Made by a program: the position numbers and the translations under genes. A DNA stretch of 64,000 nucleotides from the NCBI GenBank assembly GCA_031254105.1, contig JAIRVB010000050.1:1-64000 (forward strand). Direction: 5' to 3'. The notes under the pieces were generated by a model, which was not told the origin of the DNA, ran no database searches, and saw nothing but the letters and a program-made list of their open reading frames with translations. The stretch comes from Chitinispirillales bacterium. Its GTDB lineage: Bacteria > Fibrobacterota > Chitinivibrionia > Chitinivibrionales > Chitinispirillaceae. This document shows positions 26,577 to 40,726 of this stretch, in pieces; position 1 is the stretch's first letter; each line of letters starts with the position of its first letter.

Positions 26577-26585
26577 TGCAGGGAT

Positions 26586-26772
26586 AGGGCACCCGCGAGG
26601 GGTGCCCGTACGAGCGCGCAGGGTCGAAAAAATTTTCGCCTGCCCGTACAGATAATGGGGAATCAGGGTGTATCGTAGGGGCGACCCTCGCGGTCGCCCA
26701 TGGATGTAGAGATCAAGGTGTAATGCAGGGATATGTGAAAGGTTGCGCCGCAGGGGCGAAAATTTTTCGCCC
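26586..26772. repeat. rpsJ-rplC spacer: four palindromes and a partial rpsJ copy
   Basis: The palindromes are GGGCACCC-GCGAG-GGGTGCCC (26587-26608), TCGAAAAAATTTTCG (26623-26638), GTAGGGGCGACC-CTCGC-GGTCGCC (26675-26699) and GGGGCGAAAATTTTTCGCCC (26753-26772). Bases 26701-26733 repeat the rpsJ 3' end (26554-26586) with two mismatches. Confidence 0.75.
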
Positions 26773-26829
26773 AAATGTATGCAATAAGAATATTGATTGA
26801 TAGTTGATATAATGAAAAGAGAGATTGGT

Positions 26830-27459
26830 ATGCAGGGGTTGATCGGAAAAAAAATCGGAATGACACGGCTTTTTAATGATGCGGGCCGGGCGGTTGCCGT
26901 TACGGTCATACAGGCCGGAAATAATGTCGTAGAGCAGGTGAAGACCGCTGACAAAGATGGCTATAGCGCGGTGCAGCTTGGCTTTGAGCCGGTTGCGGAC
27001 AGGAAAGTGACAATGCCTGAGCTTGGACACTTTAAGAAGCTTGGTACCGCTCCCATGAAGATTCTCAAGGAGTTCAAACTTGACAGCGCGGAAGAGGCTC
27101 TTGCGGCCGGTCAGGTTGTTGGAGTAGAAGTTTTTGAGAATGTGAAATTTGTCAATGTAACCGGAATTTCAAAGGGACGCGGTCACGCCGGTACCATTAA
27201 GAAGTACAACTTCCAGCGCGGACGCGAATCTCACGGTAATACAAATGTGCGTGAACGCGGTTCTGCCGGAGCGAACTCTTACCCCGCGCGTGTTATGCCC
27301 GGTCTCAAGATGTCCGGACATATGGGAGCGGCTCAGGTAACAACCAGAAGACTTGAGGTTGTTGGTATTGACAAAGAAGCAGGCCTCGTTTTTGTAAAGG
27401 GTTCCGTTCCCGGACACAAAACAGGCTTTGTATTTCTGAAGAAATTTATCGGCAAATAA
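26830..27459 (+). CDS. rplC: 50S ribosomal protein L3
   Basis: 209 aa from the ATG at 26830 (MQGLIGKKIGMTRLF), chosen because AGAGAG precedes it and it gives the usual family start; an in-frame ATG at 26812 is possible. Signatures are SKGRGHAGTIKKYNFQRG and GLKMSGHMG near the peptidyl-transferase centre. Confidence 0.95.
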   Translation: MQGLIGKKIGMTRLFNDAGRAVAVTVIQAGNNVVEQVKTADKDGYSAVQLGFEPVADRKVTMPELGHFKKLGTAPMKILKEFKLDSAEEALAAGQVVGVEVFENVKFVNVTGISKGRGHAGTIKKYNFQRGRESHGNTNVRERGSAGANSYPARVMPGLKMSGHMGAAQVTTRRLEVVGIDKEAGLVFVKGSVPGHKTGFVFLKKFIGK

Positions 27460-27463
27460 CGTG

Positions 27464-27511
27464 GGGGGCGTTGCGCGCAACGCCCGTACAGGAACGGCAG
27501 CCTGCCGTTCC
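27464..27511. repeat. Two palindromes in the rplC-rplD spacer
   Basis: GGGGCGTTGC-GC-GCAACGCCC (27464-27485) and GGAACGGCAG-C-CTGCCGTTCC (27491-27511). Confidence 0.75.
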
Positions 27512-27550
27512 GCAGTAATCGCGAAAATTTTTTGATAGGATGATATATAA

Positions 27551-28183
27551 ATGAAAGCGAAACTTTATCAGCAGAATGGAACGGTCAAGGGCGACATTGA
27601 TTTGCCGGACGCTGTTTTTGCTGCGGAAGTAAATGAGCATGTCCTGCATCAGGTTATTACCTCCTACCAGACGAATCAGCGTCAGGGGACGGCTAAGACC
27701 AAGAGCCGGGATGAGGTTAGCGGAAGCGGTAAGAAGCCGTGGCGTCAGAAAGGAACGGGCCGTGCCCGCGCCGGATCAAACACGTCTCCCATATGGGTGC
27801 GTGGCGGAAAAGCTTTCGGGCCTGTACCGCGTGACTATTACACCGTAATACCCCGTAAACTCAAGAAGTTGGCGCTTGCGGGCGCGCTCTCATCAAGGGC
27901 TAAAGAAGAGAAAATTTTGGTATTGGATGCTCTCGAATGTACAGAACCCAAGACCAAAATGATAAGTACGCTTTTGGGCGCTCTGAAGCTTAGTGAAAAA
28001 AAGAATTTGCTTATTGTTGATGGAGATGGTGCCAAGAATGTATATTTGTCGGGCCGAAATATTAAGAACCTTAACATCAAACCGGTTTCTGAAATTAACG
28101 CGCTTGATATTGTAAGTTCCGAAAATATTATCTTCGGCGGACAAACTCTTATAGGCAAAGTTGAGGAGGTGGTGGTGTCATGA
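27551..28183 (+). CDS. rplD: 50S ribosomal protein L4
   Basis: 210 aa. The extended loop that reaches the exit tunnel is visible (GKKPWRQKGTGRARAG). In many bacteria L4 represses the S10 operon. The stop codon overlaps the rplW start by 4 bp (ATGA). Confidence 0.96.
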   Translation: MKAKLYQQNGTVKGDIDLPDAVFAAEVNEHVLHQVITSYQTNQRQGTAKTKSRDEVSGSGKKPWRQKGTGRARAGSNTSPIWVRGGKAFGPVPRDYYTVIPRKLKKLALAGALSSRAKEEKILVLDALECTEPKTKMISTLLGALKLSEKKNLLIVDGDGAKNVYLSGRNIKNLNIKPVSEINALDIVSSENIIFGGQTLIGKVEEVVVS

Positions 28184-28470
28184 GTAAGTATCATTCGATA
28201 ATTCGCTATCCTTCTATTACTGAGAAAAATACGGCGCTCCGCAGCAGCCAGAATAAGTTTGTATTTGAAGTTGCTGACGGCGTAACAAAGGCTGATATAA
28301 AGGAAGCTGTGCAAAAACTCTTTAATGTAGATGTAGAATCGGTAAACACGATGATCGTCAAAGGTAAGAAGAAACGCATGGGCCGCCACAGCGGTTACCG
28401 TTCCGATTGGAAAAAAGCAATCGTAAAAGTAAAAGCCGGACAAAATATAGCAAAATTCGGTGAGGTTTAA
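28180..28470 (+). CDS. rplW: 50S ribosomal protein L23
   Basis: 96 aa. It sits at the tunnel exit and docks trigger factor and SRP. Signatures are PSITEKNTALRSSQNKFVFEV and KGKKKRMGRHSGYRSDWKKA. GGAGGTGGTG inside the rplD end serves as the ribosome-binding site. Confidence 0.96.
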   Translation: MSKYHSIIRYPSITEKNTALRSSQNKFVFEVADGVTKADIKEAVQKLFNVDVESVNTMIVKGKKKRMGRHSGYRSDWKKAIVKVKAGQNIAKFGEV

Positions 28471-28472
28471 TT

Positions 28473-28583
28473 GCAAGGGCGAAAGATCTTTCGCCCTTGC
28501 GCGGAAAAGAAATTAAAATACATGCGGGAAATACGATCATCCCGCAAAAATACGAATGTATGGGCGGCATGATCACCACCCGC
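28473..28583. repeat. Palindromes in the rplW-rplB spacer
   Basis: GCAAGGGCGAAAGA-TCTTTCGCCCTTGC is a perfect 28-bp palindrome (28473-28500). GCGGG...CCCGC (28524-28545) and GGGCGG...CCACCC (28561-28583) follow. Confidence 0.75.
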
Positions 28584-28605
28584 AAAACGTAGGGACAAAC
28601 AGGAA

Positions 28606-29433
28606 ATGCCAGTAAAACAGTACAGACCGTTAACGCCGACTCTAAGATATAAAACGACTGCGGCGTTTGAACAGATCACTGCAGATGAGCCTCATAAGCC
28701 GCTTTTAGTTCCAAAATCAAGATGTAACGGGCGTAACAACAGGGGTGTGATCACCGTCAGGCACAGGGGCGGCGGACACAAAAGATTCATCCGTATAATC
28801 GATTTTAAGCGTGACAAGTTTAATATCCCCGGTATTGTCGAAACAATAGAGTATGATCCCAACCGCACATCGTTTATCGCTCTTATTAAGTATATGGATG
28901 GGGAGCGCAGATATATTCTGGCGACTGTCAATATGAAGGTTGGCCAGAAGATAATGTCAGGCAGTGAGGCTGAAATTGCTGAAGGCAACTGTCTGCCGCT
29001 TGCAAACATTCCTCTTGGGACTCAGGTTCATAATATTGAGCTTCGTGAAAAAAAAGGCGGTCAGATAGCCCGCTGTGCGGGAGCTTATGCAGAAGTCGTT
29101 GCTAAAGAGAACAAAATGGTGCAGCTCAAGTTCCCATCATCTGAAGTGCGTAATGTACGTGAAGCGTGCGTTGCCACAATCGGTCAGGTAAGTAACTCCG
29201 AACATATGAATATGACAATCGGTTCCGCTGGCCGTAAACGTCACTTGGGTTTCCGCCCGACTGTTCGCGGTGTTGCGATGAACCCGGTTGACCATCCTAT
29301 GGGTGGTGGTGAAGGTAAGAGCGCGGGTGGAGGACATCCAGTTTCACCTTGGGGGCAGAAGGCAAAAGGTCTTAAAACACGTAAGTCAACAAAACCGTCC
29401 AGTAAATATATTGTACGTCGCAGATCCAAGTAG
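28606..29433 (+). CDS. rplB: 50S ribosomal protein L2
   Basis: 275 aa. It supports the peptidyl-transferase centre. Signatures are [21 protein letters not shown] and [20 protein letters not shown]. rpsS follows after 9 bp. Confidence 0.97.
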
Positions 29434-29442
29434 AGGTAAAAA

Positions 29443-29727
29443 ATGGCGCGTTCCATAAAAAAAGGGCCATTTGTAGATGGCTATTTAGTAAAAAAAGTTG
29501 ATGACTCAAATAAGAGCGGTCAGAAAAAGGTTATTAAAACCTGGTCAAGACGTTCTGTCATACTTCCTGAATTTGTTGGGCAGACTTTTTCCGTGCACAA
29601 CGGAAGCAAGTTTTTGCCTGTGTATGTAACTGAGAATATGGTTGGACACCGCTTGGGTGAGTTCGCTCCTACGCGCAACTACCGCGGTCACAGCGGAAGC
29701 AAAACGGATAAGGCCGCCAAGAAATAA
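29443..29727 (+). CDS. rpsS: 30S ribosomal protein S19
   Basis: 94 aa. Starts [18 protein letters not shown]; the core is [19 protein letters not shown] and [15 protein letters not shown]. It contacts S13 in the head of the small subunit. Confidence 0.97.
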
Positions 29728-29745
29728 GCGGGCATAGGAGATACA

Positions 29746-30087
29746 ATGGAATCCAAAGCAGTAATAAAGAATCTGAAGTCCACGCCCAGAAAAGCGCGTC
29801 TTGTCGCTGATGCTGTGCGGGGCAGGAACGTAAGTGAGGCGCTTACTCTGCTTGAGTTTGGAATTAAAAAAGATGTAGCTGTTGATGTTGCCAAACTGAT
29901 CAAATCGGCGGTGGCTAATATTTCAAATATAGACAGTGACGCAAGTGTTGAAGTTGACGCTCTGCGGGTGAAAGAGATCAGGGTTGATGAGGGGGTAGTG
30001 ATGAAGCGGTTTCGTCCACGCGCCAAAGGCAGCGCGTCCCCTGTTGTTAAGCGCATGTGTCATATAACCGTCACGGTTTCCAATTAA
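29746..30087 (+). CDS. rplV: 50S ribosomal protein L22
   Basis: 113 aa. Signatures are STPRKARLVADAVRGRNVSEA and the tunnel hairpin RFRPRAKGSASPVVKRMCHIT. Part of the tight rplB-rpsS-rplV-rpsC block. Confidence 0.96.
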   Translation: MESKAVIKNLKSTPRKARLVADAVRGRNVSEALTLLEFGIKKDVAVDVAKLIKSAVANISNIDSDASVEVDALRVKEIRVDEGVVMKRFRPRAKGSASPVVKRMCHITVTVSN

Positions 30088-30099
30088 TCAGGAGGAGTT

Positions 30100-30765
30100 G
30101 TGGGTCAGAAAACAAATCCGGTAGGCTTGCGTCTGGGAATCACCAGATCTTGGTTTTCCAACTGGTATGCCAAAGAGCGGTTTGCCGATTATCTCCATGA
30201 AGATATGGTAATAAGAAAATATCTTAAGAAGCGTCTTGAGCACGGCGGCATAAGCTCTCTTGAGATTGAGCGTACCGCTAAGCGTGTGACTGTTGGAGTT
30301 CATACTTCACGTCCCGGTATTGTCATCGGTAAAAAGGGTGAAGAGGTTGAAAGAATCAAGGGAGAGCTTCAGCATCTAACTCAAAAAGAGATTCAGATAA
30401 ATATCCGTGAAGTCAAGAAACCTGAGATGGACTCACAGCTTGTGGCTGATAATATCGCGCGTCAGGTTGAGAAGCGCGTATCATATAAGAAGGCGACAAA
30501 GAAGGCTATATCAACAGCGATGCGTATGGGCGCTGAGGGTATTAAGATAATGGCGTCGGGCCGTCTTAACGGAGCGGAAATCGCTCGTACTGAAACTTTT
30601 AAAGAGGGACGCATTCCCCTGCATACACTACGCGCCGATATCGATTACGCAACAGCGACGGCGCACACAACATACGGCTGTATTGGCGTGAAAGTGTGGA
30701 TCTGTAAGGGAGATGTTATCAAGCGTATCGAAAAGCAGCCCGCAAAGGCAGCCGAAGGCAAATAA
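30100..30765 (+). CDS. rpsC: 30S ribosomal protein S3
   Basis: 221 aa from a GTG start after AGGAGG. The KH domain motif GIVIGKKGEEVERIKGEL lies at about residues 68-86. The C-terminal RIPLHTLRADIDYATA domain is present. Confidence 0.97.
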   Translation: MGQKTNPVGLRLGITRSWFSNWYAKERFADYLHEDMVIRKYLKKRLEHGGISSLEIERTAKRVTVGVHTSRPGIVIGKKGEEVERIKGELQHLTQKEIQINIREVKKPEMDSQLVADNIARQVEKRVSYKKATKKAISTAMRMGAEGIKIMASGRLNGAEIARTETFKEGRIPLHTLRADIDYATATAHTTYGCIGVKVWICKGDVIKRIEKQPAKAAEGK

Positions 30766-30836
30766 TGTAGGGGTGGGCCCTCGCGGCTGCCCAAAACGTG
30801 CAAGACAGGAAGGGCAGCCGCAAGGACTGCCTGTGC
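30766..30836. repeat. Two palindromes in the rpsC-rplP spacer
   Basis: TGTAGGGGTGGGCC-CTCGC-GGCTGCCC (30766-30792) and GGAAGGGCAGCC-GCAA-GGACTGCCTG (30808-30833). In the first, the stem is imperfect (GTGGGCC against GGCTGCC). Confidence 0.7.
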
Positions 30837-30914
30837 AGAGCAGATAAAATTTGATAAAATAGACGAAAGCGAAATCGCTGAAGTCATCAGGCGTAGAGAG
30901 GATCGTTACTAAAA

Positions 30915-31340
30915 ATGTTATCGCCGAAAAAAGTAAAGTGGAGAAAAACGCAGCGGGGTAGAATGGGCGGTATGGCTACCAGCTGTAATGAGGTATCGTT
31001 TGGGGAGTTTGGTCTGCAGGCTACTCAAGCCGGTTGGATTGACAACCGTCAAATTGAGGCTGCCCGTATAGCAATGACCCGTTTTGTCAAACGCGGCGGA
31101 AAGATCTGGATCCGTGTTTTCCCTGATAAGCCTACTACAAAGCATCCGGCTGAGTCCCGTATGGGTAAAGGTAAGGGAGCGCCTGAGGGGTGGGTAGCGG
31201 TTGTGCGTCCCGGAACGGTTATGTTTGAAATCGCCGGTATAAAGAGTGAAATTGCCAAGGAAGCGATGCGTTTAGCCGCACAGAAACTTCCTATCATATG
31301 CAGATTTATTGAAGTGGAAAAGCAGGGTACACAGATATGA
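30915..31340 (+). CDS. rplP: 50S ribosomal protein L16
   Basis: 141 aa. Signatures are [24 protein letters not shown]-like [20 protein letters not shown] and [13 protein letters not shown]. No strong Shine-Dalgarno is seen; the CGTTACTAAAAATG context resembles the tail of the recurring leader motif. It overlaps rpmC by 4 bp. Confidence 0.96.
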
Positions 31341-31543
31341 AAGCAAAAGAGATAAGAGAACTTTCTGTTGATGAGATTGTCAAGAAAGTGGATAGTCTTG
31401 AAGAGGAGCTTTTTAATCTCCGGTTTCAGGCGAAGATGGGGCAGCTTGGCAACGCGCTTCAACTGCGCTATGTCCGCCGCGACATCGCGAAGGCAAAGAC
31501 GATTCTTAAAGAGAAGCGTACAGCTTCAGAGGTAAAGGCGTAA
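31337..31543 (+). CDS. rpmC: 50S ribosomal protein L29
   Basis: 68 aa two-helix protein at the tunnel exit ([38 protein letters not shown]). It is translationally coupled to rplP by ATGA overlap and is 3 bp from rpsQ. Confidence 0.96.
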
Positions 31544-31546
31544 GCA

Positions 31547-31804
31547 ATGACTGAAAGAAATTACAGAAAAGAGCGTGTCGGCGTTGTAGTCAGCGATAAA
31601 ATGAACAAGAGTGTTGTTGTGAGCGTAGAGCGTCAGCTCATGCACCCGATTTACGGACGTACCGTTAAATTCAAAAAGCGTTATGTCGCTCACGATGAAA
31701 CAAATGATTGCAAAGTCGGCGACACGGTAAAAATTATTGAAACCCGTCCCCTCTCCAAAACAAAACGTTGGAGGATTGGAGAGGTTGTCGAACGCGCGAA
31801 GTAA
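31547..31804 (+). CDS. rpsQ: 30S ribosomal protein S17
   Basis: 85 aa OB-fold protein ([40 protein letters not shown]). In nearly all bacteria rplN follows directly; here an 877-bp insertion intervenes. Confidence 0.96.
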
Positions 31805-31817
31805 GGCAATGTGCAAA

Positions 31818-31846
31818 TTGATAGTGTGTAGTGTAAATATTATTAT
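31818..31846 (+). promoter_or_regulatory. Promoter of the cassette inside the ribosomal operon
   Basis: TTGATA, a 17-bp spacer and TATTAT, lying right after the rpsQ stop and 28 bp before the first cassette gene. Confidence 0.65.
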
Positions 31847-31873
31847 CACTCAATCACTAAGGAGGCTGTTGTA

Positions 31874-32041
31874 ATGACGATTAATATTGAGAATATGGCG
31901 CAAGAGATTTTCAAAGAATACAACACTCAAATTGAGGATGATAATGCGAATGATTCCGGGGCATCTACCGAGAATGCGTTTAATGTTGCTTCGAAGTCGC
32001 TGATTAAGGATTTTGCAAAAGTCACGGAAGGTATTCAATGA
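31874..32041 (+). CDS. 55-aa protein, first gene of inserted cassette
   Basis: A perfect AAGGAGG Shine-Dalgarno precedes the ATG by 9 bases. The product is acidic (MTINIENMAQEIFKEYNTQI, then EDDNANDSG) and looks mostly helical or partly disordered. The stop overlaps the next start as ATGA (32038-32041). I do not recognise a family. Size, acidity and coupling fit a small antitoxin or immunity-like partner, but that is inference only. Confidence 0.6.
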   Translation: MTINIENMAQEIFKEYNTQIEDDNANDSGASTENAFNVASKSLIKDFAKVTEGIQ

Positions 32042-32628
32042 CGATTGGCAGTATAGGTGGAACGGAGATTGAAGAAATAAGAGGTTGTCAATCTATTGAC
32101 GATGTAGAAAGAATAATTCTTGAGAGGGTAAGAGTAAAAGAATATGAGTATTATAACAAAATTGTATACAAGAGAATAAAAACATTTCTTAAAGCGTATA
32201 GTGATTTAATTGAGATAGGGAAGTATGATGGGAATAAATTCACGGTAAATAGGTCCCTTGCTGCTAATGCTATTGAACATTACGTAAAAGACCTCCGTGC
32301 TTTGAAGAACAGGTATAAGATTCATAACAATGTGCAGAGTCCTAAAATAGCGGGGCTTATGGTCAATGCGATAATGAAGTATCGTCCTATTGTGCCAAAG
32401 AATGGGAATGAGTCAGGTATAAGGGATATTAATATTAACGAGATGGTTGCTATCTACCATGGTTTTGTTGTGTGTGCGGAGGACTGTTACGATATTGTGA
32501 AGAAGTTTTTTAATGGAACGAATTTTAATGAATGGCTTAAAAGCATGATATATATTCTGAAACACCGTAACTTCACTGCTGAATCGTTGTATATGATTTT
32601 TCAGACGGTTAGGGACGCTGGAAATTGA
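32038..32628 (+). CDS. 196-aa protein of unknown function in ribosomal operon
   Basis: The start overlaps the preceding stop (ATGA coupling). The sequence is soluble, Lys/Ile/Asn/Tyr-rich and predicted helical; notable stretches are VKEYEYYNKIVYKRIKTFLK and KIAGLMVNAIMKYRPIVPK, the latter resembling a motif of uncharacterised small proteins in gut bacteria, recalled without a named family. Base composition is much more AT-rich than the flanking ribosomal genes. It is located between rpsQ and rplN, a junction almost never interrupted. Possible defence, toxin-antitoxin or selfish cassette. Confidence 0.65.
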   Translation: MTIGSIGGTEIEEIRGCQSIDDVERIILERVRVKEYEYYNKIVYKRIKTFLKAYSDLIEIGKYDGNKFTVNRSLAANAIEHYVKDLRALKNRYKIHNNVQSPKIAGLMVNAIMKYRPIVPKNGNESGIRDININEMVAIYHGFVVCAEDCYDIVKKFFNGTNFNEWLKSMIYILKHRNFTAESLYMIFQTVRDAGN

Positions 32629-32637
32629 TATTGTTTG

Positions 32638-32667
32638 TTGGTTAGAGTCGGTAATTTTAAGTATAAC
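32638..32667 (+). promoter_or_regulatory. Possible promoter restoring rplN transcription
   Basis: TTGGTT, an 18-bp spacer and TATAAC between the cassette and rplN. It is a modest match, of interest because it would decouple downstream ribosomal genes from the insertion. Confidence 0.35.
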
Positions 32668-32681
32668 TGTTTGAGGAAAAC

Positions 32682-33050
32682 ATGATACAGGTAGAAACAA
32701 ATTTGATCGTAGCCGACAATTCCGGCGCCAAAAAGGTTCGGTGCATCAGGATTCTTGGCGGTACACGCAGACGTTATGCGCGTGTTGGTGACGTTATCGT
32801 GGTAGCTGTTAAGGACGCGATTCCTAACGGCGCGGTTAAAAAGGGCGCGGTTGCCAGAGCAGTTGTGGTCAGAACCGCCAAGGAATATGGCCGCAAGGAC
32901 GGGACCTACATCCGTTTCAGCGACAATGCGGCGGTGATTATTAATGAAGCAGGTGAGCCTAAGGGGACGCGTATTTTCGGCCCTGTGGCAAGAGAGCTGC
33001 GCGAGAAGAAATTCATGCGTATAGTATCACTCGCACCTGAAGTACTATAA
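32682..33050 (+). CDS. rplN: 50S ribosomal protein L14
   Basis: 122 aa ([40 protein letters not shown]). TGAGGA precedes the ATG. First gene of the spc block after the inserted cassette. Confidence 0.97.
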
Positions 33051-33062
33051 GGAGAGGATGTC

Positions 33063-33377
33063 ATGTCGTTAGGGTTGCGCAAAGATGATATGGTCGTTGT
33101 GATATCCGGTGAATACAAAGGAAAGAGCGGTAAGATCCTTAAGGTAATTCCGGAAAAAGCAAGAGCTATCGTAGAGGGAATTAATTTTGTAAAGCGTCAT
33201 ACCAAGCCCAGCATGAAGAATCAGCAGGGCGGAATTATGGAAAAGGAAGCTTCTATTCATATCTCTAATCTTATGCTCAAGTGCCCCAAGTCTGGCGAGG
33301 CTACACGGGTGGGTGTTAAGGTTCTTGAAAATGGCGAGCGGGTTAGGTTTTCAAAAAAGGCTAAGGAGTCGATATAA
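33063..33377 (+). CDS. rplX: 50S ribosomal protein L24
   Basis: 104 aa with an N-terminal KOW motif (KDDMVVVISGEYKGKSGKIL). An early assembly protein. AGGAGAGG precedes the ATG; rplE starts immediately after the stop. Confidence 0.96.
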   Translation: MSLGLRKDDMVVVISGEYKGKSGKILKVIPEKARAIVEGINFVKRHTKPSMKNQQGGIMEKEASIHISNLMLKCPKSGEATRVGVKVLENGERVRFSKKAKESI

Positions 33378-33938
33378 GTGAGCACGGCAGCAAATAAAAA
33401 GCCCCGCATGAGGGTTAAATACGATAAAGAAGTTGTACCGGCGCTCATGAAACGGTTCGGCTTCAAGAATGTAAATCAAGTGCCGAAACTTGATAAAATT
33501 GTTATCAATATGGGAGTCGGCGATGCGGTCTCCGATGCCAAGCTTATTGACGAAGCGGTTAACTGCCTCAGAGATATAAGCGGGCAGAAGCCGGTTGTTA
33601 CCCGCGCCAAAAAAGCTATATCTAACTTTAAGCTTCGTGAGAACCTGCCTATTGGCGTTAAGGTTACTCTTCGCGGGGTGCGTATGTGGGAATTTTTTGA
33701 CAGGCTTGTGGCAATTACTATCCCCCGTATCCGCGACTTTAGAGGGCTTTCCAGAAGATCGTTTGATGGTTTTGGAAATTATACAATGGGGTTAAAAGAG
33801 CAGATTGTTTTCCTTGAAATCGACCGTGACAAGGTATCAAAGATTTCAGGTATGGATATCTGCATCAATACTACAGCCGCGAACAACGAAGAAGGTTTTG
33901 GGCTGCTTGAAGAACTGGGAATGCCGTTTCGTAAATAA
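33378..33938 (+). CDS. rplE: 50S ribosomal protein L5
   Basis: 186 aa from a GTG start. It binds 5S rRNA. Signatures are [41 protein letters not shown] and [20 protein letters not shown]. Confidence 0.96.
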
Positions 33939-34025
33939 CAATAAAATACGGTGATGGTGAAGCGCAAATTATACGGTTTATGTCTTGCGCAAGCATGATC
34001 ACTACTAAAAAAGGGGCAGTAGAGA

Positions 34026-34211
34026 GTGGCACGTAAGGCACTTATAGAGAAGAACAGAAAAAAGCCTAAATTTGAGGTTCGCGCTTATACGCGATGTAAA
34101 CGTTGCGGCAGGGCCCGCGCCTTTATCCGTGATTTCGGGCTGTGCAGGCTTTGCTTCAGACAGATGGCTCTGGCTGGGGAAATTCCTGGTGTGACGAAGT
34201 CGAGTTGGTGA
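34026..34211 (+). CDS. rpsZ: 30S ribosomal protein S14, zinc-binding short form
   Basis: 61 aa from a GTG start. The zinc ribbon is [10 protein letters not shown] and [11 protein letters not shown] (CxxC...CxxC). This is the C+ 'type Z' form rather than the ~100-aa zinc-free form. Confidence 0.96.
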
Positions 34212-34392
34212 TCCGGCAGGGGCACCCGCGAGGGGTACCCGTACACGGGAAAATTTGATAAAGGCAATAGGAGGGGCGAATAATTATTCGCCCGTACAAT
34301 GGGTGATAATGATATCGTAGGGAACGGCCGGTGGCCGTTGCCGCAAATAAATAAATGTATACGGCGGGGGAGCAGATTTCCTGCACGTACAG
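34212..34392. repeat. Four palindromes in the rpsZ-rpsH spacer
   Basis: GGGGCACCC-GCGA-GGGGTACCC (about 34219-34240), GGGGCGAATA-AT-TATTCGCCC (34273-34294), TAGGGAACGGCC-GGT-GGCCGTTGCC (34318-34342) and a weaker GGGGGAGCAG...CTGCACG. Two end in CGTACA. Confidence 0.75.
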
Positions 34393-34408
34393 AAGGGGTT
34401 AAGTAAGG

Positions 34409-34804
34409 ATGCTAACAGATCAGATCGCAGATATGTTCAACAGAATAAGAAACGCTATACAGGCAAGAAAGCGTACTGTTGACATTCCATCAAACAAGCT
34501 TAAAAAAGAGATTGCAAGAATTCTTTTTGAGAATCATTTTATAAGCAAGTACGCTTTTGTCGAGAGTGAAACTCAGGGTACGATAAAAATCCTGTTAAAG
34601 TACGATGAGGATATGCGTAGCGCGATACAGGGGCTCAAGCGCGTTTCTACTCCAGGCCGCAAGAAGTATTCCGGAGCGCAGGGCGTTCCCAAAGTTCTCA
34701 ACGGTATGGGTATGGCGATTATCAGCACATCCAAGGGTGTAATGACAGACGCGGACTGCCGAAAGATGAATGTCGGCGGCGAAGTGATCGGTTTGGTTTG
34801 GTAA
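34409..34804 (+). CDS. rpsH: 30S ribosomal protein S8
   Basis: 131 aa. Starts MLTDQIADMFNRIRNAIQAR; the C-terminal STSKGVMTDADCRKMNVGGE is typical. S8 represses the spc operon in E. coli. Confidence 0.96.
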   Translation: MLTDQIADMFNRIRNAIQARKRTVDIPSNKLKKEIARILFENHFISKYAFVESETQGTIKILLKYDEDMRSAIQGLKRVSTPGRKKYSGAQGVPKVLNGMGMAIISTSKGVMTDADCRKMNVGGEVIGLVW

Positions 34805-34810
34805 TTTTTG

Positions 34811-35037
34811 GATAGAGGGCACCCGCAAGGGGCGCCCGTACAGTGGATAATGTAGGGCAAACGGCAGGGGCGAAAAATTTTTCGCCTGTACAATTGATGG
34901 ATAATGTAGGGGCACCCCTCGCGGGTGCCCATGCACGAATAGAAAAAAATCGGTTTGCAGGACAGGGCGAACACGCAGGTTAGCCCGTACAATGGATGAT
35001 AATGATATTGTAGGGAACGATCATTGGTCGTTTCGTA
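34811..35037. repeat. Five palindromes in the rpsH-rplF spacer
   Basis: GGGCACCC-GCAA-GGGGCGCCC, GGGGCGAAAAA-TTTTTCGCC (34874-34893), TGTAGGGGCACCC-CTCGC-GGGTGCCC (34905-34930), GGGCGAAC-ACGCA-GGTTAGCCC and TGTAGGGAACGATC-ATT-GGTCGTTTC. Several are followed by CGTACA or TGTACA. They occupy nearly the whole 256-bp spacer. Confidence 0.75.
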
Positions 35038-35060
35038 TATAAAGATAGGAGCATAAAAAA

Positions 35061-35603
35061 GTGTCTCGCATAGGAAAAGTACCGGTAAAAATACCAAGCG
35101 GCGTTCAGGTCAAGGTTGATGGCCGTAAAATTGAGGTCAAGGGGAGCAAGGGTACTCTTAGCCGTGAACTCCCCGCCGAACTTAAGGTTGAGGTCGGTGA
35201 GGGGATTATTAATGTAATTCCTGTGGCAGTAGATGCTGAGGGCACAAAGGCGCTGTGGGGTCTTTACCGCGTTCTTATCAACAACATGGTTGTTGGTGTG
35301 TCAAGCGGTTACAAAAGAGAATTAGAGATATTTGGAGTAGGTTACAAGGTTGAGCTCAAGGGCAAAGACCTTAACATCGCCGCGGGTCTCTCTTATCAGG
35401 TGCTCTTTAAGGCGCGTCCCGGTCTTGAGTATAAGACCGATGGTCCAAGTAAGATTGTAATTGAAGGTATCGACAAGGAATCTGTAGGACAGGCGGCAGC
35501 CGACATCCGCAGAATCCGCCCTCCTGAGCCATACAAGGGTAAAGGTATCAGATATGCCGGTGAGCGGATTCGCAGAAAAGCCGGTAAGACAGCGGGTAAG
35601 TAG
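35061..35603 (+). CDS. rplF: 50S ribosomal protein L6
   Basis: 180 aa from a GTG start after TAGGAGC. Tandem RNA-binding modules (MSRIGKVPVKIPSGVQVKVD; GVSSGYKRELEIFGVGYKVE; PPEPYKGKGIRYAGE) are complete. Confidence 0.97.
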   Translation: MSRIGKVPVKIPSGVQVKVDGRKIEVKGSKGTLSRELPAELKVEVGEGIINVIPVAVDAEGTKALWGLYRVLINNMVVGVSSGYKRELEIFGVGYKVELKGKDLNIAAGLSYQVLFKARPGLEYKTDGPSKIVIEGIDKESVGQAAADIRRIRPPEPYKGKGIRYAGERIRRKAGKTAGK

Positions 35604-35606
35604 TTT

Positions 35607-35876
35607 GGGGGGGGCGGTGCGCGCAACGCCCGTACAAGGGATCGATGATGTAGAAGGCAGTAGGGGCACCCCTTGCGGGTGCCCGAAATGTGCGGGACAG
35701 AGAGGGCACCCGCAAGGGGTGCCCGTACAACGGATGATACGGATAATAATGTAGGGGCGCCCCTCGCGGGTGCCCAATATACGGAAACGATGATGTTTGC
35801 AGGGGGGCGCGATTCGCCGCGCCGCAAATTACGAAAAAAATGCGGGACACAATATGTATAGAATATTGCCCCGCGA
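35607..35876. repeat. Six palindromes in the rplF-rplR spacer
   Basis: GGGGGGCGGTGC-GC-GCAACGCCC, TAGGGGCACCC-CTTGC-GGGTGCCC (35662-35685), AGGGCACCC-GCAA-GGGGTGCCC (35703-35724), TGTAGGGGCGCCC-CTCGC-GGGTGCCC (35751-35776), GGGGGGCGCG-ATT-CGCCGCGCC (35800-35822) and GCGGGACAC...GCCCCGC. This is the longest run of the family, in a 298-bp spacer. Confidence 0.75.
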
Positions 35877-35901
35877 TTGTGGATAGAGGAGCATTATAGA
35901 A

Positions 35902-36279
35902 ATGAACAGCGCAAAACGTAGAATTGTTGAAAGATCACGTCGTGCCGCGCGGGTACGCAAGACAATCAGCGGAACAGCTGAGCGTCCCCGGTTGTGTGTA
36001 AGGCGCAGTATCAATCATATTTACGCACAGATTATTGACGATGTACAGGGCAAGACACTGGCTTACGCCGGAAGCACCGGTAAAGAGTTTAGCGCAAAAA
36101 TATCCGGTAAGGAGAAGCTCAACAAGATGGAAGTTTCAAAGATTGTTGGAGAGATTCTTGCCGAGAAAGCGGTTGGTCAGGGCGTTAAGGCTGTCGTGTT
36201 TGACAGAAAAGGATATCTTTACCATGGCCGCGTAAAAGCTTTGGCTGAGGGTGCGCGCAGCAAGGGACTTGTATTCTGA
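35902..36279 (+). CDS. rplR: 50S ribosomal protein L18
   Basis: 125 aa; binds 5S rRNA with L5. Signatures are [20 protein letters not shown] and [28 protein letters not shown] precedes the ATG. Confidence 0.96.
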
Positions 36280-36290
36280 GGTGTAGAGGA

Positions 36291-36318
36291 AGGACAAAAA
36301 ATTATTTTGTCCGTACAT
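36291..36318. repeat. Palindrome in the rplR-rpsE spacer
   Basis: GGACAAAAAATTATTTTGTCC followed by GTACA. The core is AT-rich, but the outer CGTACA flank of the family is kept. Confidence 0.65.
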
Positions 36319-36334
36319 TGGAGGGGGTTTTCCT

Positions 36335-36829
36335 TTGAGTAATGAAGAATTGAATGTTGGCGGCGGAGAGTTAGCTGAAAGGTTAGTTGCTGTAAGCCGT
36401 GTCGCGAAAGTGGTTAAGGGCGGACGCCGTTTCGGCTTTAACGCGCTTGTAGCGGTTGGGGATGGAAACGGTACTATCGGGCTTGGTATGGGTAAAGCCA
36501 ATGACGTGACTGAAGCTATCCGCAAGGCTGGAGAGAGCGCGAGAAAAAGTCTTGTTAAAGTCAGCTTGATTGAGGGTACGATACCTCACGATGTACTTGG
36601 ACATTTCGGCGCAGGCAGGATAATACTGAAGCCTGCCGCTCCCGGTACCGGTGTTATCGCCGGCGGCCCTGCGCGCGCTGTGCTTGAATTGGCCGGTGTA
36701 CGTAATATCCTGACCAAGTGCCTTGGAACAACCAACGCTCATAACGTGGTTAAGGCTACGCTTGACGGGCTTAAGCAACTGAAAACAAAAGAACAGATAA
36801 GAAAATTGCGCCAGGTGGCGGCAGCTTAA
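36335..36829 (+). CDS. rpsE: 30S ribosomal protein S5
   Basis: 164 aa from a TTG start (TGGAGGGGG 8 bases upstream). The double-stranded-RNA-binding-like fold ([20 protein letters not shown]) and the C-terminal lobe ([18 protein letters not shown]) are present. Confidence 0.96.
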
Positions 36830-36845
36830 GTTAAGGAGAGAGCCG

Positions 36846-37031
36846 GTGAGCAAGAAAATTAAAATCACTCAAGTGAAAAGCGCGATAGGGCGTCTTGAAA
36901 ATCAGAAAGCGACTATTAAGGCTTTAGGTATCCGTAAACTGAATCACTCGGTAGTTCACGAAGATAACGCGGTGATCCGCGGTATGGTAAACACCGTGAA
37001 ACACCTTGTGAAGGTTGAAGACGAAAAATAA
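36846..37031 (+). CDS. rpmD: 50S ribosomal protein L30
   Basis: 61 aa from a GTG start, 16 bp after rps[21 protein letters not shown] and [20 protein letters not shown] are typical. L30 is absent from many lineages; here it is retained. Confidence 0.95.
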
Positions 37032-37168
37032 CTGTAGAAACACGATTTATCGCGTACTATCAATGCGCAGGTAAAATTGATAAGTGCGCGGTAAATCCCG
37101 CTCCAGCAGGAGCAGGATTGAAGTCAGGGCAAGTAAATGAGCCCGAATTATTGAGGAGCTTACAAAAA

Positions 37169-37615
37169 ATGGTTAAATTAAACTCTTTAAGACCCGGAGC
37201 AGGTTCACGCAGGCCGACAAAAAGGCTTGGGCGGGGTACCGCGAGCGGTCAGGGTAAGACAGCTGGACATGGAAGCAATGGTGACAAGGCAAGAAGCGGA
37301 GCTTACCAGAAGTTTTATTTTGAAGGCGGTCAGACTCCGCTCACACGCAGAGTGCCCAAGTTTGGTTTTCACAGCCCTTTCAAGATGGAATATCAGATTG
37401 TAAACGTAGGGTCGTTAGAGAAAGCTGATGTTGCCGGTAAGGACATTACGGCAGAGGTGCTTCGTGAGCTTGGATTGATTCACGAAGTTGATGTGCCTGT
37501 GAAGATACTTGGTTCCGGCGAACTCAGCAGGGCTCTTACTTTTAAGGTAAACGCATACTCTAAGACAGCTAAAGAGAAAATCGAAAAAGCAAAAGGAAAA
37601 GCAGAGGTAATCTGA
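37169..37615 (+). CDS. rplO: 50S ribosomal protein L15
   Basis: 148 aa from the ATG at 37169, supported by TTGAGGAGC. The Gly/Arg-rich N-terminal tail (RRPTKRLGRGTASGQGKTAG) is typical. secY starts 2 bp after the stop, implying coupling. Confidence 0.96.
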   Translation: MVKLNSLRPGAGSRRPTKRLGRGTASGQGKTAGHGSNGDKARSGAYQKFYFEGGQTPLTRRVPKFGFHSPFKMEYQIVNVGSLEKADVAGKDITAEVLRELGLIHEVDVPVKILGSGELSRALTFKVNAYSKTAKEKIEKAKGKAEVI

Positions 37616-37617
37616 CC

Positions 37618-38925
37618 GTGATTGATACCGTGCGCAATATGTTTAAGATCCCCGAGCTGAAGAAGCGTATAATCTTCACTCTGGTGATTATTTTTATTTA
37701 CAGGCTTGGCGGCCATGTGCCTACTCCCGGCGTTAACGCGGAAGTACTCAAGAATTTTGTCGCGGGCAACAGCGAAGGTCTATTTGGCCTTTATGATATG
37801 TTTGTGGGCGGAAACTTCAGCCGCTTTACAGTGTTTGCGCTTGGCATCATGCCATACATCAGCGCTTCCATTATCATACAGCTTATGGGGACAGTGTTTC
37901 CATATTTTCACAAACTGCAGCGTGAAGGCGCTGAAGGGCGTAAGAAGCTGACTCAATATACGAGATACGGCACGGTTCTCATTGGGCTTGTTCAAGCTGT
38001 GGGCTTGTCGGTTTTCATGTTGAGCGTTAATGATAACGGTGTTCCTGCGGTTATAATGAATAATGCTCTGTTTATGTTTACTACTGCGATATCGTTGACT
38101 ACCGGTACGGTTGTCATAATGTGGCTTGGTGAACAGATTACGAGCCGGGGTATAGGAAACGGAATATCGCTCATAATTTTTATAGGTATTGTTGCCGCGA
38201 TTCCGGGATCTGTCGGGGTTCAGATACGTCAAATAATGGCTGATCAGGGGCATGTAGTTATATCTTTGATTTTCCTTGCGATTGTACTTACGGCAACCGT
38301 GGCGGTTGTTATTATGACACAGGCGATGAGGCGCATTCCCATACAAACACCCAAGAAAGTTGTGGGGTCAAAGATGTATGCGGGACAGAATACTGTACTG
38401 CCGCTTCGTCTTAACATGGCCGGTGTTATCCCGATTATCTTCGCCTCTTCAATCATGACATTCCCAGGTATGATCGGCAGTTTCCTGCCTCATTCGGGGG
38501 TTTGGGAGGAGATTTCCAGATTTTTTGCTCCCGGTGGAATAATTTATTCGCTTATTTACGCGGTATTAATTATATTCTTTACCTATTTTTACACGGCGAT
38601 TGTTTTTAATCCGGTTGACATAGCCGATAATCTCAAGCGTCAGGGCGGTTTTATCCCTGGTATTCGTCCAGGAAAGAAAACCGCAGAGTTTCTTGACAAT
38701 GTGTTGGCGCGTATTACCCTGCCAGGATCGGCTTTTCTTGCTATAATAGCGGTTGGGCCGATTATGCTTATGAGTTCATTTGGAGGCGGATTTTACTTTG
38801 GAGGTACAAGTATTCTTATTGTCGTGGGCGTGGCGCTTGATACTTTGCAGCAGCTTGAATCACATTTGCAAACACGCAATTACGCTGGATTCATGAAAAA
38901 AGGCAGCTTGCGCGGAAGGAGATAA
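37618..38925 (+). CDS. secY: Preprotein translocase subunit SecY
   Basis: 435 aa from a GTG start. Ten TM segments are readable, starting with RIIFTLVIIFIYRLGGHVPTPG. The plug and pore-ring region follows (FALGIMPYISASIIIQLM), and the cytosolic loop ends near the C-terminus. It forms the channel with SecE at 11430. adk and map, which often follow secY, are absent; infA comes next after 106 bp. Confidence 0.97.
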   Translation: MIDTVRNMFKIPELKKRIIFTLVIIFIYRLGGHVPTPGVNAEVLKNFVAGNSEGLFGLYDMFVGGNFSRFTVFALGIMPYISASIIIQLMGTVFPYFHKLQREGAEGRKKLTQYTRYGTVLIGLVQAVGLSVFMLSVNDNGVPAVIMNNALFMFTTAISLTTGTVVIMWLGEQITSRGIGNGISLIIFIGIVAAIPGSVGVQIRQIMADQGHVVISLIFLAIVLTATVAVVIMTQAMRRIPIQTPKKVVGSKMYAGQNTVLPLRLNMAGVIPIIFASSIMTFPGMIGSFLPHSGVWEEISRFFAPGGIIYSLIYAVLIIFFTYFYTAIVFNPVDIADNLKRQGGFIPGIRPGKKTAEFLDNVLARITLPGSAFLAIIAVGPIMLMSSFGGGFYFGGTSILIVVGVALDTLQQLESHLQTRNYAGFMKKGSLRGRR

Positions 38926-39031
38926 GAGCTTTTTACTTTGCAATGCAGAAATAAGAATGCAAAAACAGGAAAAAATGGCATAGAAATACTAAATGAGTTT
39001 GTTATTCAGCAAGGTGCAAAGCTAATTAAAA
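38926..39031. other. secY-infA spacer
   Basis: No gene. The segment around 38941-38970 (AATGCAGAAATAAGAATGC) resembles one arm of the long palindromic elements at 43063 and 58696, so it may be a decayed copy. Confidence 0.35.
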
Positions 39032-39250
39032 ATGGGGAAAAACGATTCAATACAGGTTGAGGGTACGGTTACGGAGAATTTGCCAAACGCGTCTTTCAAG
39101 GTGCAGCTTGAGAATAAGCATGAGGTTTTGGCGCACATATCGGGAAAAATGCGTATGAATTATATACGGATTTTGCCTGGCGACAAGGTTCTTGTCGAGC
39201 TTTCACCGTATGATTTGTCCCGCGGCAGGATTGTTTACAGATATAAATAG
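39032..39250 (+). CDS. infA: Translation initiation factor IF-1
   Basis: 72 aa S1-type OB fold ([47 protein letters not shown]). It lies in the common infA-rpmJ-rpsM order. The ribosome-binding site is weak. Confidence 0.96.
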
Positions 39251-39251
39251 A

Positions 39252-39349
39252 TAGGGGCGAAAAATTTTTCACCCGTACAAAATATAGGCCAGGGAAGGGC
39301 GCGGTAAACCGCGGCCGTACGTAGGGGCAAAGTTTTTTGCCTGTATAAT
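39252..39349. repeat. Three palindromes in the infA-rpmJ spacer
   Basis: GGGGCGAAAAATTTTTCACCC+GTACA (39254-39278), GGGCGCGGT-AAA-CCGCGGCC+GTAC (39298-39320) and TAGGGGCAAA-GTT-TTTTGCC+TGTA (39321-39344). Confidence 0.7.
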
Positions 39350-39364
39350 TTAAGGAGATTGAAG

Positions 39365-39481
39365 TTGAAAGTTCGGGCATCAGTTAAGACAATGTGCAAT
39401 GGGTGCAAGGTGATCCGGCGCAAGGGGGTTGTTAGAGTTATTTGTTCTAAAAACCCCAAGCACAAGCAGCGTCAGGGTTAA
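39365..39481 (+). CDS. rpmJ: 50S ribosomal protein L36
   Basis: 38 aa from a TTG start (AAGGAG 9 bases before). The zinc site C-x2-C...C...H is intact ([24 protein letters not shown]). Confidence 0.95.
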
Positions 39482-39560
39482 TGGCTTTGTGGATTTGAGT
39501 GATATGAGTAAGCTTGGCTTGAATAGAAGCTTGCTGAAACATTTTTAGAAAGGGTTGATT

Positions 39561-39941
39561 GTGGCTCGTGTAGCAGGAGTCGAAATTCCAAACAATAAGC
39601 GCAGCGTGATTGCGCTTACCTATATATTCGGGATAGGTCATTCATCCGCTGCCGCTATTCTGGCAAAAGCGGGACTTGATGAGAACAAGAGAGTAAAAGA
39701 TCTTACAGAGGATGAACTCAACCGTATACGCGCGGTTATTGACGCGGAGTATCAAACAGAGGGTAATTTACGCTCTGATATCAGAATGAATATCAAGCGC
39801 CTGATGGATATAGCATGTTACCGCGGTTTGCGCCATCGCCGCAGTCTGCCTGCCCGCGGTCAGCGTACACGTACCAATAGCCGTACACGCAAGGGACCGC
39901 GCAAGACAATTGCGAATAAGAAAAAGGCTCCGGCTAAATAA
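39561..39941 (+). CDS. rpsM: 30S ribosomal protein S13
   Basis: 126 aa from the GTG at 39561 ([15 protein letters not shown]), the usual family start; an in-frame TTG two codons earlier is less likely. The C-terminal basic tail [20 protein letters not shown] contacts P-site tRNA. Confidence 0.96.
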
Positions 39942-39952
39942 TTTTGGATAGA

Positions 39953-40016
39953 ACGGGGCAGGAGTGAACTCTGCCCGTACATGATTATGTAGAGGCGCAG
40001 TTTGTCTGCGCCCGTA
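39953..40016. repeat. Two palindromes in the rpsM-rpsK spacer
   Basis: GGGGCAGGAGT-GA-ACTCTGCCC+GTACA (39955-39981) and TAGAGGCGCAG-TTTGT-CTGCGCCC+GTA (39990-40015). Confidence 0.7.
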
Positions 40017-40041
40017 AATTTGGAAGCAAGAGGAGTGATGG

Positions 40042-40087
40042 CGGATGCAGATGTGTCTTGAGTCACTTCGTATCATAAGTAAAAAAG
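40042..40087 (+). repeat. Recurring leader motif before rpsK
   Basis: GCAGATGTGTCTTGAGTCAC, then TTCGTATCATAAGT and an A-run, 14 bp before the rpsK start. Same motif as 9190-9232, 11152-11197 and 11374-11416. Confidence 0.5.
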
Positions 40088-40100
40088 AGGAAATTCGCAG

Positions 40101-40499
40101 ATGAATAAGGAAGCATCCGGAAGCAGCGCAGCTAAGAAGGCCAAGAAGAAGGCCCCGGCTGATGGTGTTGCTCATGTTCGCGCAACGTTTAATAACACTA
40201 TCATTAACGTGACAGACACAAGAGGTAATGTGGTTGCGTGGCATACGCCCGGCAAGGCGGGTTTTAAGGGATCTCGCAAGAGCACTCCCTTTGCGGCGGG
40301 TATTGCCGCTGAGGTTGTGGGTAAGGCTGCTTATGATGCCGGTGTACGCAAGGTAGAGGTTCATCTGCGCGGCGCCGGCAATGGCCGTGAGAGTGCAATA
40401 AGGTCTTTGGCGGCGGCAGGTTTAAAAATCACATGCATCAAAGATTTTACGGCAGTTCCGCATAATGGATGCCGTCCGCCCAAAAAGCGCAGGGTATAA
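40101..40499 (+). CDS. rpsK: 30S ribosomal protein S11
   Basis: 132 aa. Lys/Ala-rich N-terminus, then [20 protein letters not shown] and the C-terminal [12 protein letters not shown]. Part of the alpha operon. Confidence 0.97.
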
Positions 40500-40525
40500 T
40501 AAAAATGCGAATCGCCCATGGCCGG

Positions 40526-40726
40526 TAGGGGCGGTAGGGGCAGCCCTCGCGGCTGCCCGAAAATGCGCGCGGTAATGGCGCATTAGAGATGCATTAGGGG
40601 CGCGGGAAAGGGGCAACCGCAAGGGTTGCCCGTACAAATGATAGATAGATAGGGGGCGATTGGTAATCGCCCGCTTGTGAATAGAAAATAGATGCATGCG
40701 GGACGCGCAAAATACGTCCCGCAGAG
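40526..40726. repeat. Four palindromes in the rpsK-rpsD spacer
   Basis: TAGGGGCAGCC-CTCGC-GGCTGCCC (40537-40559), GGGGCAACC-GCAA-GGGTTGCCC+GTACA (40610-40636), GGGGGCGATT-GGT-AATCGCCC (40651-40671) and TGCGGGACG...CGTCCCGCA (40696-40723). Confidence 0.75.

Follow-up and report, generated by a model that had tools for sequence, protein, structure and literature searches.

Type II toxin-antitoxin modules consist of two adjacent, co-oriented genes, usually with the small antitoxin gene first and often overlapping. A pair of genes between rpsQ and rplN in the window (the whole 64,000-nucleotide stretch of Chitinispirillales DNA that was analysed) has this order, its frames (ORF1 and ORF2) overlapping by the 4 nt ATGA, and it shares with the type II modules a patchy, multi-copy spread, transfer, and the occurrence of solitary small genes. 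It is unlike them in its lack of known homology, in a large protein that is longer than usual and in a small protein without a recognisable DNA-binding domain, and the role of its large protein as a toxin is putative. The pair would resemble the type II class in its working, with membership only putative; the absence of family homology bars filing it under a known toxin-antitoxin family, not the working analogy. HEPN-type all-alpha RNase toxins (for example HepT of MNT-HEPN) likewise offer an all-helical protein in a two-gene unit, but the ORF2 family matches no Pfam family or fold and does not conserve R-X4-6-H (the best column pair is found in only 4 of 33 sequences). Phage morons and abortive-infection cargo are comparable as autonomous small units amid unrelated genes, and one copy of the pair does lie on a phage contig (L097, the only one); in contrast with such cargo, almost every copy is chromosomal and solitary, and a defence role is here putative. 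Foreign genes breaking a conserved ribosomal cluster have also been reported; the accessible parts of those reports concern metabolic and iron-storage genes, between or within operons of Gammaproteobacteria and Bacilli, and thus other genes and another junction. A literature search on the pair, on toxin-antitoxin modules in Fibrobacterota and on such modules in ribosomal operons found nothing directly relevant. The pair belongs to a family of small travelling gene pairs that had no name before; its members are scattered across gut Fibrobacterota, and one was found in a phage.

The insert is exactly as an earlier note on this DNA had it: a stretch of AT-rich sequence (36.2% GC, against 47.7% over the flanking 10 kb) between neighbours that Pfam confirms on both sides (Table 1), encoding, behind a perfect Shine-Dalgarno sequence, an acidic 55-residue protein (net charge -6) and an ATGA-coupled protein of 196 residues. 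The same note's ranking of the rpsQ-rplN junction among the most conserved in bacteria needs qualifying for this clade. The window genome (G000) is placed with Chitinispirillales MAGs in family f1 (order Chitinispirillales, phylum Fibrobacterota), and in 21 other genomes of that family the spacer already varies from 33 to 254 bp. In genome G010 (locus L078) the gap holds a different ORF of 57 aa, DUF4177-like (E=1.4e-4, under the Pfam cut-off), a second case of gene gain at this junction. Many intergenic junctions of the S10-spc-alpha operon contain repeated REP-like palindromes, GTAGGGGCACCCCTCGCGGGTGCCC and its relatives among them (window 26583-40635; examples near 26583, 34216, 34813, 35660 and 40607). 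With its variable gap, its palindromes and the extra ORF of G010, the S10-spc operon of this clade is loosely built. Vertical presence of the pair at this locus across the phylum was looked for, and the pair is absent from the gap in all 21 other family f1 genomes. An assembly join is an unlikely source of the insert because the insert is complete, the flanking genes are intact within an 88.7-kb contig, and homologous pairs exist elsewhere. The ribosomal location, which the pair occupies only in the window genome, is therefore new and probably incidental, given the pair-free gap of the 21 relatives and the presence of the large protein at other, non-ribosomal places. No flanking target-site duplication emerged at the window copy: AAATTGATA on the two sides gives a 27-nt match at 74%, not above background, and when flanking repeats were compared with shuffled pairings, most copies, that of the window included, showed nothing above background.

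Table 1. Features of the insert and its neighbours (window coordinates)
Feature	Position	Strand	Basis
rpsQ (S17), upstream neighbour	31547..31804	+	Pfam PF00366, E=8.5e-32
Insert between rpsQ and rplN	31805..32681	+	877 bp
Putative sigma-70 promoter TTGATA-17-TATTAT	31818..31846	+	10/12 match
Shine-Dalgarno AAGGAGG of ORF1	31859..31865	+	sequence; 8 nt before ORF1 start
ORF1, 55-aa small acidic protein (putative antidote)	31874..32041	+	family alignment, profile search, AF2
ORF2, 196-aa all-helical protein (putative effector or toxin)	32038..32628	+	homologues, AF2
Weak promoter-like TTGGTT-18-TATAAC before rplN	32638..32667	+	8/12, under scan threshold
rplN (L14), downstream neighbour	32682..33050	+	Pfam PF00238, E=3.8e-55

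The promoter that had been proposed for the cassette is present as a site, although taken singly it is near chance: promoter-like sites in the region number 4, against 4.0 expected, and shuffling the 90 bp upstream gives a site as good in 3% of cases. It is the family that makes a private promoter plausible, because a site matching at 10 or more of 12 positions lies within 90 bp upstream in 7 of 33 copies, against 0.84 expected. The possible promoter for rplN scores under the threshold of the same scan.

The small ORFs of the family encode 55-85 aa and lie upstream of the large gene, usually overlapping it or within 42 nt; their alignment has a near-invariant Asn in a PN-x-[SA] motif. The AF2 model of ORF1 has two helices joined by the conserved loop (pLDDT 71), with a low pTM (0.36) such as would be expected of a partner-binding peptide. 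No DNA-binding domain is recognisable in the small protein, and small and large proteins do not always carry opposite charges. The large proteins (160-245 aa) are predicted to be all-helical (AF2 model of ORF2: pLDDT 78, pTM 0.76). Across 33 diverse homologues N134 and E135 never vary and P117, A138 and R177 hardly do, a conservation that suggests a putative functional site. Neither protein has a meaningful match in Pfam, NCBIfam, PADLOC, PHROGs or known folds: there is no homology to a known toxin or antitoxin family (Pfam, NCBIfam, PADLOC), no match to PADLOC anti-phage profiles (best E=0.011, in 1 of 11 members), no enzyme family match for the large protein, no Fic/Doc motif of the H-[PA]-F-x-[DEN]-[GA]-N-x-R type in any of the 33 sequences, and no significant fold match to the ORF2 model among solved or viral structures. 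Assignments of ORF1 to ChaB (Pfam E=0.003) and of ORF2 to DUF1694 (Pfam E=0.008) were rejected as lying below the cut-off and not being shared by homologues; Foldseek matches of ORF2 to Bcl-2-like and designed helical proteins (E>0.2, TM about 0.2) were also set aside.

Detecting the family takes alignments: scans of viral and genome contigs with single sequences matched nothing, and tblastn found no matches in plasmid and phage collections. A profile of 33 large proteins finds 57 places in 20 of 168 Fibrobacterota genomes, all within five genera; two subfamily profiles made from divergent matches add ~47 places (some of them fragments or weak) and bring the genomes to 23, for an overall count, divergent subfamilies included, of about 100 places in 23 of the 168 genomes. 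The subfamilies are probable rather than certain relatives of the core family, since profile-profile comparison with the core gives P=8e-5 and 5e-4. The named loci belong to MAGs of Chitinispirillales and Fibrimonadaceae, the host lineages being, by inference, gut bacteria, mainly of termites; one further copy adjoins an AAA_14/DUF4143 gene on a 3.5-kb contig binned as Bacteroidales (L104, JAITUN010000009.1), which reflects either misbinning or transfer between phyla. A genome may hold up to about six divergent copies, and G000 has five places, four with an open large frame and one broken. About 30 related loci were read closely and their neighbours are unrelated genes; neither the four further places in G000 nor the loci examined in relatives adjoin ribosomal genes. 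Copies are mostly solitary between housekeeping genes and do not cluster in defence islands. One (L018, G020:C227, 3624-6474) is near genes resembling, by sequence, ZorA/ZorB of the Zorya defence system.

Several observations show that the two ORFs are conserved together and that inheritance and transfer take them as one unit. A small-protein profile gives 32 matches in 19 genomes, all but one adjoining a large gene, intact or broken (the exception is the solitary G023:C151, and a pair split across contigs is counted as paired), a figure that is partly circular in that most of these sequences had built the profile. Divergent large-gene loci outside the profile set have a small ORF directly upstream in 18 of 18 cases, and 21 of 31 pairs show an overlap of 1-23 nt between small and large gene. 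Purifying selection acts on both genes (dN/dS 0.08-0.18 for the small and 0.04-0.16 for the large gene), as measured in related copies, the window copy having no homologue close enough. The distance matrices of small and large proteins are correlated (Mantel r = 0.79; 0 of 10,000 permutations as high); correlated divergence demonstrates joint inheritance, not by itself binding. Three defective copies (G000:C23, G019:C32 and G023:C151) keep the small gene, with the large gene broken or missing, against no intact large gene without an upstream small gene among the copies read; the three are few, and a 3:0 asymmetry has a one-sided probability of 0.125 if both directions are equally likely, too little for proof. 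Loss of the large but not the small gene would be, in these small numbers, the direction expected of a putative antidote; in Klebsiella, antitoxins commonly occur without a partner (PMC7192599). The layout also varies: a 53-aa membrane-protein gene lies between small and large gene at two loci (L014, 6539-6700, and L062, 5143-5304), and at two others (L066 and L068) the upstream small gene is of a different type, membrane-anchored through an N-terminal membrane segment.

The pair also moves. In two pairs of recent copies, L057 with L067 (91.5% DNA similarity) and L053 with L056 (79%), the sequences are alike only over both ORFs and a few bases before them; their flanks are unrelated. In the tree the copies of G000 are placed apart from one another, and one of them (L014) groups at 100/100 with L062 of G072 (Fibrimonadaceae, group f8); this grouping across families, together with their common three-gene layout, argues for horizontal transfer. 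On the viral contig L097, which also has phage tail, terminase and capsid genes, the pair adjoins a CI-type repressor; this is the only phage-borne pair in eight scans, and scans of IMG/VR with five subfamily alignments yielded no further viral copies. There is strong support for a mobile pair with an incidental ribosomal address.

The earlier note had offered a selfish, addictive or translation-linked module, and these suggestions fare differently. The selfish or addictive part fits dispersed multi-copy pairs, transfer, phage carriage, obligate pairing and loss confined to the large gene. A translation-linked role is unsupported because the roughly 30 related loci read closely have unrelated neighbours and only G000 has the pair at the ribosomal position. 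An accessory translation or ribosome-assembly module, held in the S10-spc operon for co-expression, would draw on the position and orientation of the pair inside that operon, but against the same uniqueness, and against the unrelated neighbours of the four further G000 places and the other examined loci, this reading is largely refuted already and we regard it as very improbable. Neutral or decaying foreign DNA, having no present function, would account for the low GC content and the broken copies; the strong purifying selection that acts on the two genes of related copies, and a window copy that is intact, with its promoter-like site and Shine-Dalgarno sequence, make this improbable as well, if somewhat less so. 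A little more credit, though still not much, is due to a non-toxic pair, either a small substrate or precursor peptide with a modifying or transport partner or else a signalling pair: the one conserved internal motif of the small protein and the variants with a membrane protein between the genes speak for it, while against it the motif lies within the protein, neither a leader nor a terminal core is obvious, and the large protein matches no enzyme family.

What the balance favours is a toxin-antitoxin-like cognate pair, perhaps for phage exclusion, a reading that we hold to be about evenly poised between right and wrong. Chance would have brought a dispersed, horizontally moving two-gene module into a permissive gap of the S10-spc operon, where it would be expressed from its own promoter and by operon read-through. 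By analogy with toxin-antitoxin and abortive-infection systems, the small protein may act as a flexible partner that inhibits or regulates the all-helical large protein; with the small gene translated first and the coupled large gene second, the antidote would stay in excess, and the pair, once acquired, might be hard to lose or might protect against phages. Weighing against the toxin-antitoxin-like reading are the missing match to known toxin or antitoxin families, the small protein without a recognisable DNA-binding domain, charges that are not always opposite, the variants with an inserted membrane-protein gene or a membrane-anchored small protein, the too few defective copies (three) and the single viral contig. 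Its main rival, or overlapping partner, is a phage-exclusion or abortive-infection module carried as phage cargo, in which the large protein would sense or block an incoming phage, the small protein would restrain it and the copies would differ in specificity. The phage-borne pair beside the CI-type repressor and the several divergent copies per genome are consistent with such a module, which is rather unlikely all the same, as PADLOC has no match and the copies stand mostly alone between housekeeping genes, not in defence islands.

Should the pair prove toxic and self-neutralising, a little-studied phylum would have yielded a new family of conflict modules whose fold is unmatched in solved structures, and one such module would have settled inside the S10-spc operon and left it unbroken. 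More broadly, there is as much to be said for as against a new superfamily of two-protein modules, for toxin-antitoxin action or phage exclusion, that has expanded within the lineage and has an undescribed all-helical effector; it would comprise at least five small/large subfamilies at about 100 places in gut Fibrobacterota and would spread, with no transposase, as pairs of bare ORFs that enter essential operons and phages. The exact ORF-to-ORF edges of the recent copies raise the question of how such a transposase-free pair moves. At one locus (L060, G066:C270) a flanking 100-bp repeat was considered as an insertion duplication and rejected, because a third copy in the same contig makes it part of a repeat array. 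There, an array of small ORFs is separated by ~100-bp repeats that include promoter-like TTTGTATATT, and the module copy sits inside this array, its last codons derived from the repeat.
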